NCBI GenBank assembly: GCA_017541205.1
Contig: JAFXZO010000073.1
Span: 1-55,682 of the forward strand
Reading direction: 5' to 3'
DNA length: 55,682 nt
Source: Clostridia bacterium
Lineage (GTDB): Bacteria > Bacillota > Clostridia > Christensenellales > Aristaeellaceae
Below, in pieces: positions 192 through 20,137 of the stretch. A program made the position numbers and the translations under genes. Position 1 is the first letter of the stretch; the number at the start of each line of letters is the position of its first letter. Below the pieces are notes generated by a model. It saw only the letters and a program-made list of their open reading frames with translations. It was not told the DNA's origin and made no database searches.

Positions 192-560
192 ATGATCATC
201 AGCGCCGCTATGGAGCGTTACCTGTACGCGATCCTGCTGCTGAAAAAGAAATACCGCTGCGTCCGTTCGGTGGATGTGGCGCATTATATGAAATGCTCCA
301 AGCCCTCGGTCAGCGTTTCCGTCAATCGGCTGATCAAGGAAGGATTGCTGGTGATGGAGCAGGACGGCAATTTGGCCGTAACGGATCGGGGCAAAGCATA
401 CATTCAGGCCCATCAGGATCGGAGCAGGTACTTCCAGCAGCTGCTTGAGGCGGCCGGAATCGACCCGGATATTGCGGAAGCTGAATCTTTTTCCCTGGCA
501 AAAGCCATTCAGCCCGATACGTTTGACGCGCTGAAAAAGTATTTATCAAACGCTCTATGA
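192..560 (+). CDS. Short DtxR/MntR-like transcriptional regulator
   Basis: The 122-residue protein begins with a winged helix of the iron/manganese-dependent repressor type (MERYLYAILLLKKKY, then VDVAHYMKCSKPSVSVSVNR, then a wing ending VTDRGKAYI). A short helical part follows where DtxR proteins bind metal and dimerise. MntR is about 140 residues and DtxR about 225, so this is a minimal form. In the family this region has a His-rich HRxxERFL segment and an EACxxEH motif. Here the matching positions read HQDRSRYF and AEAESFSLAKAI, so most metal ligands appear lost. The start at 192 has a GGAGAG nine bases upstream. It is a candidate for binding the GTTAG-N6-CTAAC palindromes found nearby and at feo, but that link is inference. 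Confidence 0.8.
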   Translation: MIISAAMERYLYAILLLKKKYRCVRSVDVAHYMKCSKPSVSVSVNRLIKEGLLVMEQDGNLAVTDRGKAYIQAHQDRSRYFQQLLEAAGIDPDIAEAESFSLAKAIQPDTFDALKKYLSNAL

Positions 561-674: not shown

Positions 675-714
675 AAAAAGCATGTGCCATGATGCCGCAT
701 AGCACACGCTTTTT
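675..714 (-). terminator. Strong terminator of the candidate sRNA
   Basis: The 13-base arms AAAAAGCATGTGC and GCACACGCTTTTT pair with one mismatch around a 14-base loop. Each strand ends the stem in a T run, so it can act in both directions, including as a backup for the rightward DtxR-like transcript. Confidence 0.75.
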
Positions 715-765
715 GGGAGAAGAAAAGGAGGCGCATGATTCCTTTGGAAAAACATGCTTTTGAGT

Positions 766-781
766 GTTAGTTATTTCTAAC
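766..781. promoter_or_regulatory. Palindromic operator GTTAG-N6-CTAAC (copy 1)
   Basis: The sequence is GTTAGTTATTTCTAAC. It lies nine bases downstream of the -10 box of the leftward sRNA promoter, over the start of transcription, a position where a bound repressor would block the promoter. The arms match those at the feo promoter and resemble the TTAGG-type half sites of DtxR/IdeR repressors. Confidence 0.7.
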
Positions 782-790
782 CTCGAAAGC

Positions 791-819
791 ATTATATAAT
801 GCTTCCGCCCGATTGTCAA
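791..819 (-). promoter_or_regulatory. Consensus sigma-A promoter for the candidate sRNA
   Basis: Read leftward, TTGACA (819-814), a 17-base spacer and TATAAT (796-791) match the vegetative consensus exactly. The -10 box lies within the self-complementary GCATTATATAATGC. Confidence 0.8.
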
Positions 820-17057: not shown

Positions 17058-19520
17058 TCATACCCTCCTTGTCAGCCTGGTGGCCTCCTGGTACTTTTTG
17101 AAGAACAGCATGTAGATCATTGCGCCCAGCACGCCCAGGGCGGCAATCAGGCCAATGATATTCACATGCCCGGTGAACAGATTGCCGAACTGATAGATCA
17201 TCAGGCTCACGGCGTAGGCAAAGCCGCACTGATAGGCGATGGCGAACCAGGTCCAGCCCGCGTTGTTCATTTCCCGCTTGATCGCGCCGATGGCCGCAAA
17301 GCAGGGCGCGCACAGCAGGTTGAACACCAGGAAGGCGTAGGCGGCGATGCCGGTGAAGGAGGCGGCCAGGTTCGCGTAGGCTGCCGTGCCGCCGTAGAGG
17401 ATGCCCATGGTGCCCACGATGTTTTCCTTGGCGATGAGGCCGGTGATGGAAGCCACCGTGGCCTGCCAGGTGCCAAAGCCCAGCGGTGCGAAGATCCAGG
17501 CAATGACGCTGCCGACTTTAGCCAGGATAGACAATTCCAGTTCCTCTTTCTCCAACATACGGAACGTGCCGTCCGCCACACCGAAGCGGCTGAGGAACCA
17601 CACCAGGATGGTGGACAGCAGGATGATGGTCCCGGCCTTTTTGATGAAGCTCCACCCGCGTTCCCACATGGAGCGAAGCACGTTGCCCAGCGTGGGCCAG
17701 TGGTATGCCGGAAGTTCCATAACGAAAGGCGCGGGTTCCCCGGCGAAGCGTTTTGTTTTTTTGAGGATGATACCGCTGATTACAATCGCTGCCATGCCGA
17801 TGAAATAAGCGCTGGTTGCTACCCAGGCGGAACCGCTGAAAACTGCTCCGGCGATCATCGCGATAAAGGGCACCTTCGCACTGCACGGGATGAATGTTGT
17901 CGTCATGATGGTCATGCGCCGGTCGCGCTCATTTTCAATGGTGCGGCTGGCCATGATGCCCGGCACGCCGCAGCCTACGCCGACAAGCATAGGAATGAAG
18001 GATTTGCCGCTCAGACCGAACTTGCGGAAGATCCGGTCCAGCACGAAGGCAATGCGGGCCATGTAACCGCAGGCTTCCAGGAAGGCCAGCAGGAAGAACA
18101 GCACCAGCATCTGAGGCAGGAAGCCCAGTACTGAACCGACGCCCGCCACAATGCCGTCCAGGATCAGACCTTTCAGCCAGTCAGCCGCGCCCACGGCGTC
18201 CAGACCCTTTTCCACCAGCGCCGGGATGCCGGGCACCCAAACGCCGTAGTTAGCCGGGGCTGGCGCGCCCACGTCGGATTTATACCCATCCTCTGTGCTC
18301 AGGTATTCTGCCACGGCAGCCTGAAGATCCGCTTTCCCGGTATCCGGATGCTCCTCAGTCGATAACGTTTCGTCATCCTGGGTGATATAGGTCACGCTGG
18401 CATCCTCCGGTACGGCAGCCATCAGGGCGTTCAGGGATGCCTCCGGGTTCTCTTCATCGATTTCCACTTCATACTGTTCCGCGAACGCGGAAATAATAGC
18501 GTCGGTATCGCCATAACGTTCAGACGCTTCACTGTACTGGGCAGCGCCATTGCCGAAAAGATGAAACCCGTCGCCGAAAAGATTGTCATTCACCCAATCC
18601 GTTGCAGGCGTGCCCACCGCCACCATGGCGATCCAGTATACCGCGAACATGATCAGAGCAAAAATGGGCAGGCCCAGGAAACGGTTGGTGACCACCTTAT
18701 CGATTTTGTCCGACGTGCTTAAGCTGCCCGCGTTGTGCTTGCGGTAGCAGGACTTGATGACCTGGGCGATGTACACGTAACGTTCATTGGTGATGATGCT
18801 TTCCGCGTCGTCGTCCAGCTCCTTTTCGGCGGCGGCGATGTCGGATTCGATGTGCTTCATGGTGTCCGGGGCGATGTTCAGCTGCTCCAGCACCTTGTCG
18901 TCCCGCTCGAACACCTTGATGGCGTACCAACGCTGCTGTTCTTCGGGCAGATCGTGCACGATGGCTTCCTCGATGTGGGCCAGGGCGTGCTCCACCGGGC
19001 CGGAGAAGGTGTGCTGCGGAACGGTTTTCGTTCCCTTCGCCGCCTGGATGGCCGCCTCCGCCGCGTCCAGGACGCCGGTGCCCTTCAGGGCGGAGATTTC
19101 CACGACTTTGCAGCCCAATTGTTTTGCCAGATCGGCTGCGTTCAGCTTATCGCCGTTCTTCTTCACCACGTCCATCATGTTGATGGCCACCACCACGGGA
19201 ATGCCCAGCTCCACCAGTTGGGTGGTCAGGTACAGGTTGCGTTCCAGGTTGGTGCCGTCAATGATGTTCAGGATGGCGTCGGGCCGTTCGTTGATCAGGT
19301 AATTCCGGGCCACCACCTCTTCCAGGGTGTAGGGAGACAGGCTGTAAATTCCCGGCAGGTCGGTGATGGTGACGCCGTCATGCTTTTTGAGCTTCCCTTC
19401 CTTCTTTTCCACCGTAACGCCGGGCCAGTTGCCCACGAATTGATTGGAGCCGGTCAGGGCGTTGAACAGGGTGGTTTTCCCGCTGTTGGGATTGCCCGCC
19501 AGGGCGATTTTGATATCCAT
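17058..19520 (-). CDS. feoB: Ferrous iron transporter FeoB
   Basis: The 820-residue protein starts with a G domain: G1 LAGNPNSGKTTLFNAL, the switch region GNWPGVTVEKKEG, G3 TDLPGIYSL and G4 VAINMMDVV. The membrane part carries two gate-like core repeats, including LVGVGCGVPGIMASRTI and FIPCSAKVPFIAMI with the conserved cysteines of the iron path. An extra, acidic extracytoplasmic insert (about 340-450, rich in Glu/Asp) separates the first helix from the rest, longer than in typical FeoB. It imports Fe2+ driven by its GTPase-coupled channel. The start at 19520 has AGGAGG eight bases upstream. Confidence 0.95.
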   Translation of the reverse strand: MDIKIALAGNPNSGKTTLFNALTGSNQFVGNWPGVTVEKKEGKLKKHDGVTITDLPGIYSLSPYTLEEVVARNYLINERPDAILNIIDGTNLERNLYLTTQLVELGIPVVVAINMMDVVKKNGDKLNAADLAKQLGCKVVEISALKGTGVLDAAEAAIQAAKGTKTVPQHTFSGPVEHALAHIEEAIVHDLPEEQQRWYAIKVFERDDKVLEQLNIAPDTMKHIESDIAAAEKELDDDAESIITNERYVYIAQVIKSCYRKHNAGSLSTSDKIDKVVTNRFLGLPIFALIMFAVYWIAMVAVGTPATDWVNDNLFGDGFHLFGNGAAQYSEASERYGDTDAIISAFAEQYEVEIDEENPEASLNALMAAVPEDASVTYITQDDETLSTEEHPDTGKADLQAAVAEYLSTEDGYKSDVGAPAPANYGVWVPGIPALVEKGLDAVGAADWLKGLILDGIVAGVGSVLGFLPQMLVLFFLLAFLEACGYMARIAFVLDRIFRKFGLSGKSFIPMLVGVGCGVPGIMASRTIENERDRRMTIMTTTFIPCSAKVPFIAMIAGAVFSGSAWVATSAYFIGMAAIVISGIILKKTKRFAGEPAPFVMELPAYHWPTLGNVLRSMWERGWSFIKKAGTIILLSTILVWFLSRFGVADGTFRMLEKEELELSILAKVGSVIAWIFAPLGFGTWQATVASITGLIAKENIVGTMGILYGGTAAYANLAASFTGIAAYAFLVFNLLCAPCFAAIGAIKREMNNAGWTWFAIAYQCGFAYAVSLMIYQFGNLFTGHVNIIGLIAALGVLGAMIYMLFFKKYQEATRLTRRV

Positions 19521-19549
19521 TGTATCGTTCCTCCTGTTATAAGCTTCCA

Positions 19550-19565
19550 ATTAGATAAAACTAAC
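19550..19565. promoter_or_regulatory. Imperfect palindrome of the GTTAG-N6-CTAAC type (feoB upstream)
   Basis: ATTAGATAAAACTAAC lies between the second feoA and feoB. It differs from the consensus arms at one base and may allow extra metal control inside the operon. Confidence 0.45.
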
Positions 19566-19582
19566 TTTCGAGCAAAAAAGAA

Positions 19583-19804
19583 TCACTCCACCTCGATGCT
19601 TTCGGCATCCGCCTTCCGGATGGACAATTCGTATCCGCGCACGGTGATTTCGATGGGGTCGCCCAGCGGAGCCACCTTGCGCACGAAGATCTCCACGCCT
19701 CTTGTAATGCCCATGTCCATGATCCTGCGCTTCACCGCGCCTTCACCGTGGATCCTGACCACTTTCGCCTTGCCGCCCACCGGTACTTCTCTCAGGTTCT
19801 TCAT
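19583..19804 (-). CDS. feoA: FeoA family protein (second copy)
   Basis: The 73-residue protein has the SH3-like FeoA fold: LREVPVGGKAKVVRIHGEGA, then RRIMDMGITRGVEIFVRK, APLGDPIEITVRGYELSIRK. FeoA is a small cytosolic partner that promotes FeoB transport. It sits between another feoA and feoB, and duplicated feoA genes in series are common in Clostridia. Confidence 0.9.
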   Translation of the reverse strand: MKNLREVPVGGKAKVVRIHGEGAVKRRIMDMGITRGVEIFVRKVAPLGDPIEITVRGYELSIRKADAESIEVE

Positions 19805-19821
19805 TCTCTTCCGCCTCCATC

Positions 19822-20034
19822 TTAAATCATGATCTTGCGGGCCATTTCATCGTTGATGGCCACGCGGGATTCCTTGACCTTGACGATCACATTGCCGTTC
19901 ATGGCTGTGATCACGGTTACATTGCCGCCTACAACAAACCCAAGGTTTTCCAGATGCTTTTTCACTTCCGGACCGCCGCCGATCCTGCGGATAACGGATT
20001 CTTCCCCGGGCGTCGCATAGCTTAATGGCATCAT
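19822..20034 (-). CDS. feoA: FeoA family protein (first gene of the feo operon)
   Basis: The 70-residue protein has the FeoA pattern MPLSYATPGEESVIRRIGGG, VKKHLENLGFVVGGNVTVI, NGNVIVKVKESRVAINDEMA. The start at 20034 follows GGAGGGGG; an upstream in-frame ATG (20049) would add five Gly/Arg-rich residues. Its promoter carries two GTTAG-N6-CTAAC operators. Confidence 0.88.
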   Translation of the reverse strand: MMPLSYATPGEESVIRRIGGGPEVKKHLENLGFVVGGNVTVITAMNGNVIVKVKESRVAINDEMARKIMI

Positions 20035-20079
20035 CCTGCCCCCTCCCATCCAAACGCATACGCACAGTCATCCGCGATT

Positions 20080-20137
20080 GTTAGAATATGCTAACCACCG
20101 CGACTCATATTATAGTTAGGGTAGCCTAACATGTCAA
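20080..20137 (-). promoter_or_regulatory. feo promoter with two palindromic operators
   Basis: Leftward TTGACA (20137-20132), a 17-base spacer and TATAAT (20114-20109). The spacer is filled by GTTAGGGTAGCCTAAC (20115-20130), the best copy of the palindrome and closest to the DtxR/IdeR consensus. A second copy, GTTAGAATATGCTAAC, lies at 20080-20095, downstream of the predicted start. A repressor bound in the spacer would block polymerase directly, as expected for iron-repressed feo genes. Confidence 0.8.

Follow-up and report, generated by a model that had tools for sequence, protein, structure and literature searches.

The question raised by this locus is what is made from positions 819-674 on the reverse strand of the window (by which is meant the whole 55,682-nucleotide stretch of DNA that was analysed), where an exact promoter, an operator at the predicted start site, a CU-rich stretch and a terminator follow one another in a single array, and what such a product would regulate. 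The promoter, at 791-819 on the reverse strand, is an exact match to the sigma-A-type consensus TTGACA-17-TATAAT, of which the window holds four against 0.01 expected from shuffled sequence. The palindrome GTTAGAAATAACTAAC, of the form GTTAG-N6-CTAAC, lies over the predicted start site (766-781), and exact sites of this form number five in the whole window, with 0.01 expected. The candidate sRNA transcription unit, with both ends placed by promoter and terminator, is predicted to run across 674-784 on the reverse strand and has a computed fold of -38.9 kcal/mol, with z = -6.0 relative to shuffled sequence (675-785) or z = -7.2 (674-784). It begins with a 5' hairpin (733-757, reverse strand), continues into a presumed seed of 17 nt, the CU stretch CCUCCUUUUCUUCUCCC (715-731, reverse strand), which contains the anti-Shine-Dalgarno core CCUCC and has a computed mean unpaired probability of 0.94, and ends in an intrinsic terminator hairpin of 17 bp with a six-base loop and five T (675-714, reverse strand). 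A first-pass annotation of this DNA had claimed an exact leftward promoter, a palindromic operator just after it and then a unit of about 110 nt with a hairpin, an exposed CU-rich anti-Shine-Dalgarno stretch of 16 bases and a hairpin terminator with a T run. These features are borne out, and a stand-alone sRNA gene is supported, except that the 5' hairpin, present in the window, is absent in the related genome G015 and does not belong to the conserved element. On the reverse strand of the window the upstream sequence AAAAGCATGT is a perfect complement of ACATGCTTTT in the arm of the terminator (676-685, 752-761), and this complementarity, which is not a conserved feature, could give an alternative structure there.

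The unit has 11 homologues and is carried by 12 of 29 genomes examined from its genus. BLAST against 150 relatives returned one close copy (G026, 91%) and otherwise short matches, three of the matches proving to be the candidate sRNA unit (G026, G011 and G015). A covariance model of the core, built from the window, G011 and G015 and run on 308 genomes of the family, gave 12 strong matches (E <= 2.4e-11), all in the window's genus and one per genome; a second model, built from all 12 members and run on the 29 genus genomes, again gave 12 matches (E <= 8.4e-13, the next best at 7e-4), among them the window unit, itself a row of the model, at 1.7e-15. The 12 weak matches of the first model (E of 1.2e-4 or worse) were rejected; the ten that were inspected resemble, by eye, common hairpins or coding sequence, and lack the operator. 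Because matches are confined to the genus, and 17 of the 29 genus genomes, two of them 96% complete, gave no strong match, the family is narrow and patchy in its distribution. Consistent with these limits, a scan for the exact pattern across one genome from each of 84,980 species yielded nine records, which are nine of the same 12 genomes; they are listed as uncultured Clostridiales, Clostridia or Christensenellaceae, and for three of them rumen or omasum is named. A pattern joining the operator to CCTCCTTTTC matched in seven of the 308 family genomes, all of this genus, and six of these matches are the candidate sRNA; the match in G009 is coincidental, lying on the other strand across the promoter. 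Membership of a known Rfam family was rejected for the window unit, as a scan of the window with Rfam 15 gave no match above the gathering threshold and only five sub-threshold matches in 600-860, the best with an E of 0.36.

As the first covariance model was built without the operator, the presence of an operator in the members is an independent test, and a search of the 420 bases before each core found in every one of the 12 both TTGACA-17-TATA(A/T/C/G)T and GTTAG-N6-CTAAC, the latter exact in ten and with one mismatch in two. The distance from the start of the -35 element to the start of the operator is 38 bases in nine members, 36 in one and 39 in two; in nine short members the operator begins 23-51 bases before the core, and in the three long ones 292 (G024), 325 (G022) and 241 (G002) bases before it. 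The CU stretch CCUCCUUUUCUUCUCCC is identical in eight of the 12 and similar in the other four. In the 12-row alignment eight rows read exactly CCTCCTTTTCTTCTCCC, with slight departures in G026, G010, G022 and G002, and no row deviates from TGCGGCATC. The computed mean unpaired probability of the seed is 0.77-1.00 in eight short units and 0.54 in G011; for the long units it is 0.40 (G024), 0.49 (G022) and 0.97 (G002), which leaves the seed about half paired in the computed ensembles of G011, G024 and G022.

Covariation in related Clostridia, which had been proposed as a check on the unit, is found in the terminator stem, where 11 of 17 pairs are changed on both sides among the 12 members and 94.7% of cells are paired. 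The covariation score of these 12 rows was reached by none of 500 shuffles, the number of further pair types by 119 of 500. Since three rows of the 12-row alignment had seeded the model to which it was fitted, a free MAFFT alignment of four rows is the fairer check; in it six of 17 pairs are changed on both sides, and again none of 500 shuffles reached the covariation score. The terminator loop CGGCAU (692-697, reverse strand), which lies within the invariant UGCGGCAUC in all 12 members, is a second element of the family, an invariant one, that the first-pass annotation did not mention. The possibility that this is simply a common terminator loop of the genus was rejected, since among 62 terminator-like hairpins in about 219 kb of genus DNA the loop CGGCAT occurs in five, all of them the candidate sRNA, in a scan whose strict rules caught five of the 12 sRNA copies present and may miss other terminators too.

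Could the locus encode a protein instead? A gene for a small protein, read leftward or from the other strand, would account for the ORFs of 34-66 aa that can be listed across the unit and for an AGGAGG-N3-ATG on the forward strand of the window, and we give this reading almost no credence, the earlier claim that there is no convincing protein having held up. In none of the nine short units does an ORF of at least 10 codons end inside the unit; in G015, G019 and G009 the sole start codon that opens at least 10 codons sits inside the terminator stem; and what is conserved is the RNA rather than opposite-strand coding, the forward-strand AGGAGG-N3-ATG being absent, for example, in G015. The protein-coding reading was rejected on these ORF results. 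As to the unit being a leader, it is convergent with the DtxR-family gene at 192-560 and so has no evident leftward gene to lead into. Several different gene neighbourhoods occur among the 12 members, and a fixed downstream gene under attenuation was rejected because the neighbours vary from member to member.

In three of the 12 members (G024, G022 and G002) an ORF, of 54, 58 and 41 aa respectively, intervenes between operator and core, with its stop codon within a few bases of the CU stretch. The core thus lies directly 3' of coding sequence in these three and not in the other nine, the window included, an arrangement that is read from the DNA. All three ORFs are membrane-protein-like, and those of G024 (L099:3604-3768, forward strand) and G022 (L100:3571-3747, reverse strand) are Cys-rich, with the common motif KCLGKCA.CP. 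The latter two resemble FeoB-associated proteins by eye only; Pfam and NCBIfam assigned none of the three small ORFs to a family, returning only a sub-threshold match to DUF6095, and they are therefore not called FeoB-associated. The same AAA-ATPase-type gene lies just upstream in G015, G028, G024 and G022, which places short and long forms at the same locus. Since only a few bases separate a small ORF from the core in G024, G022 and G002, the core might be what is left of a leader or 3'UTR, inactive in trans, in which selection acts on the terminator alone. This is very unlikely, as nine of the 12 members lack such an ORF and still carry seed, loop and promoter-operator, and the loop is absent from the other terminator-like hairpins scanned. 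Across the 12 genomes the arrangement of promoter and operator persists while gene context, and even the internal ORF, change. We see here a new sRNA family whose functional kind is known, unusual in its alternation of coding and non-coding forms. It may be, though this is less likely than not, that the locus leads a dual life, giving a dual-function transcript in some species and, where the ORF is lost or absent, a bare regulatory 3' end that would act without Hfq through its exposed anti-Shine-Dalgarno stretch and CGGCAU loop. Were this true, a small Cys-rich membrane protein and a regulatory 3' end would share one DtxR-controlled transcript, an arrangement that hints at how a single promoter can come to serve either an iron-regulated protein gene or an sRNA alone.

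The operator, which we take to be a palindrome of the DtxR type and not a Fur box, ties the unit to other genes, as had been claimed, and above all to ferrous iron import. The same palindrome sits inside the promoter of the feoA-feoA-feoB operon of the window (17058-20049, reverse strand), where an exact promoter at 20109-20137 on the reverse strand holds the operator 20115-20130 in its 17-base spacer, and a second exact operator follows just downstream of that promoter (20080-20095). The remaining exact sites of the window precede a leftward MBL/methyltransferase-like gene at 863-1858 (operator 1916-1931) and a leftward HTH_17-like gene at 1927-2196 (operator 2197-2212; the Pfam match to HTH_17 is sub-threshold). 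The former gene is an odd fusion of MBL fold and methyltransferase, and the latter encodes a small HTH_17-like protein. In the genome to which the window belongs, ten sites match GTTAGNNATNNCTAAC with at most one mismatch, against none for the reversed control, this pattern being stricter and excluding the two feo sites; six of the ten are on contig C90, where the surrounding genes are for ABC transporters, a DUF3793 protein, a protein with an FMN-binding domain and a DtxR-family regulator. All 12 sRNA-bearing genomes have FeoB_C, with 20 matches in total, of which 19 exceed the cut-off. The upstream DNA was examined for 15 feoB loci in the 12 genomes (that of the window and 14 others): in nine the operator, with no more than one mismatch, stands before the feo genes or between them, and three more have a two-mismatch form (GTTAA..TTAAC-like or similar), which is weak evidence; three second feoB copies among the 15 have no operator, and the other five FeoB_C matches, covered by short loci only, showed no exact operator sites.

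Two DtxR-family regulators come into consideration as the repressor. The gene convergent with the sRNA (192-560, forward strand; Pfam Fe_dep_repress) lies directly downstream of an AraC-type gene, and an 88% homologue of its product in G011 (L035), also after an AraC-like gene, is on a contig other than that of the sRNA. In alignment with the C90 regulator all six positions aligned with metal ligands are changed in the 192-560 protein, so it is probably a metal-blind paralogue and not the metal sensor. The C90 regulator, whose gene has the operator beside it, is ligand-complete, with D, E, H, E and H at positions that, in both proteins, we take to be ligands after MntR and DtxR, and with Cys where the aligned MntR has Glu. 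That Glu is presumably the ligand Glu99, and we assume Cys at this place to be typical of iron-sensing DtxR. Judged from these residues, the C90 regulator rather than the 192-560 protein is probably the repressor acting on the predicted operator.

Iron is the likely metal, and likelier than manganese, because the operator lies at feoAAB and because no Nramp gene was found in the 12 sRNA-bearing genomes, which are 80-95% complete, the same search being positive in seven of 14 control genomes. A manganese-responsive sRNA under an MntR-like repressor, sparing manganese, would have its precedent in RsaC of Staphylococcus aureus, which is an MntR-controlled RNA that originates from a 3'UTR, being cut out of the mntABC mRNA, and serves manganese (PMC9294342). 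Its DtxR-family control and 3'UTR origin resemble the forms seen in G024, G022 and G002, the three of 12 members that are 3'UTR-like, and the closest solved-structure relatives of the C90 regulator are MntR proteins. Such an RNA is nonetheless quite unlikely here, in view of the operator at feoAAB, the 0/12 result for Nramp and the Cys that replaces the Glu of MntR; RsaC also differs in that it is released by mRNA cleavage, whereas a promoter lies immediately upstream in nine of the 12 members.

We favour, at a probability of roughly 0.6, a real sRNA gene of the iron regulon that is repressed by a DtxR-family protein, made together with Feo at low iron, and acts by anti-Shine-Dalgarno pairing without Hfq. 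The observations within this reading are the anatomy, the conservation, the covariation, the operator common with feo, and the failure to find Nramp and Hfq (PF17209); the latter was found in none of the 12 genomes, 80-95% complete, and in five of 14 control genomes. The identity of the repressor, induction at low iron, pairing and targets are what we infer. With Fe(II) in good supply, a DtxR-family repressor carrying metal, probably that of C90, would occupy the start-site operator and shut the strong promoter; as iron falls the operator would be freed and the RNA produced together with the Feo importer. Its single-stranded CCUCCUUUUCUUCUCCC would then pair, in a set of mRNAs, with Shine-Dalgarno regions rich in purines and block ribosome binding, with no need for Hfq. 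That the targets are spared iron proteins is a guess by analogy. A metal switch common with the iron importer, joined to an exposed stretch directed against ribosome-binding sites, means that the RNA probably dampens translation when iron is scarce.

The claim that it is the translation of iron proteins that is repressed found no backing in the target searches. Target prediction around the CU-rich stretch, proposed along with that claim, gave no signal either among complements in the 12 genomes or in a test of 372 genes. Complements of the 17-nt stretch with at most two mismatches numbered 44 non-self sites in the 12 genomes against 36 for the reversed control, hardly an excess; among the 30 loci of this search, few of the non-self ones, on inspection, precede a gene. 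The pattern GAAAAGGAGG-N3-9-ATG occurred 174 times in the 12 genomes against 37 in the control, an excess such as a plain Shine-Dalgarno sequence would give. The genes that follow it, read by eye in G000 (16 of 17 sites, the seventeenth being the sRNA locus itself) and G015 (19 of 19), the only two genomes covered, had no iron-protein theme. Duplex energies were computed over about 0.47 Mb of the own genome, including the window and part of C90, with home-made gene calls. A first round of 378 genes had poor gene calls and only four genes with Fe-S motifs; in the second, of 372 genes, the seven with Fe-S-like Cys motifs paired no better than the 365 others (p = 0.71), a number too small to rule out an effect. 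One IspG-like gene, by eye that of an Fe-S enzyme and passed over by the motif filter, ranks fifth of the 372 by duplex energy and is a lead only. On its sequence the seed is strongly Shine-Dalgarno-like, which makes its predicted specificity doubtful. The terminator loop might in turn pair with AUGCCG start regions; the order of CU stretch and loop makes joint pairing of both with one start region awkward.

The seed also resembles the 3' end of 16S rRNA, and the RNA might be a generic mimic that copies the 16S tail and has no particular set of target mRNAs, either reducing translation across the board or titrating an RNA-binding protein. An invariant terminator loop, such as a protein site might be, and the absence of target enrichment would fit this proposal, which we consider unlikely, given that the stretch beyond the anti-Shine-Dalgarno core is about as conserved as the core, something for which a mimic would have no need.

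The best-known sRNAs of iron starvation are controlled by Fur and, in the enteric model, work with Hfq. The first-pass annotation had likened the unit to FsrA and RyhB; an exposed anti-Shine-Dalgarno stretch under a metal-type operator agrees with that logic, and the unit departs from RyhB in that no Hfq was found in the 12 genomes. Pairing of C-rich or UCCC sequences with Shine-Dalgarno regions is known for FsrA, IsrR and LhrC (PMC9410917, PMC4132741). IsrR of Staphylococcus is described as a Fur-regulated iron-sparing sRNA with single-stranded C-rich regions that acts on translation independently of Hfq (PMC9410917). Both it and the present RNA have C-rich sequence, computed here to be single-stranded and complementary to Shine-Dalgarno sites, and the iron repression and translational action of IsrR are predicted here; IsrR differs in having Fur boxes in place of a DtxR-type operator and three C-rich regions, two of them in loops, in place of one linear stretch of 17 nt, and the window unit has no Rfam match. 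FsrA, the Gram-positive iron sRNA of Bacillus subtilis, likewise binds Shine-Dalgarno sequences through a C-rich motif, and is under Fur control with three helper proteins, FbpABC (PMC9410917), whereas the operator here is of DtxR type. The CU-rich UCCC sites of LhrC from Listeria, one of them in the terminator structure, bind G-rich sequence upstream of the start codon (PMC4132741); LhrC is controlled by cell-envelope stress and present in five copies, and the conserved terminator loop here, CGGCAU, is not CU-rich. MrsI of Mycobacterium tuberculosis, an iron-starvation sRNA of a host without Hfq, has a promoter site for IdeR, of the DtxR family (PMC8628891, PMC9410917). Likened by description, it agrees with the present unit in a host without an Hfq hit and, if the operator here does belong to a DtxR-family regulator, in its promoter site, and differs in its six-nucleotide seed and in belonging to a different phylum. 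MrsI with its IdeR site (PMC8628891) is also the nearest exception to the table of a 2022 review, which enters 'NR' (no cognate sRNA) for DtxR/Fe (PMC9294342). A search of open-licence papers turned up no description of an iron sRNA from this bacterial group. On this comparison the unit is best read as a new anti-Shine-Dalgarno sRNA of narrow distribution, with a DtxR-type operator and no Rfam match, that would work much as FsrA, IsrR and MrsI do. It offers a covariation-supported family with a DtxR-type operator in uncultured Clostridia without detectable Hfq, and with an exact seed available.

A different arrangement of the operator is seen in G021 and G011, where leaders of the form operator-hairpin-operator (L008 of G021, at about 1500-1660, and L033 of G011, at 420-504) precede genes that by eye are DUF3793-like and FMN-binding-like. 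Leader RNAs of another sort, flanked by operators and with a hairpin of their own, may be present there.
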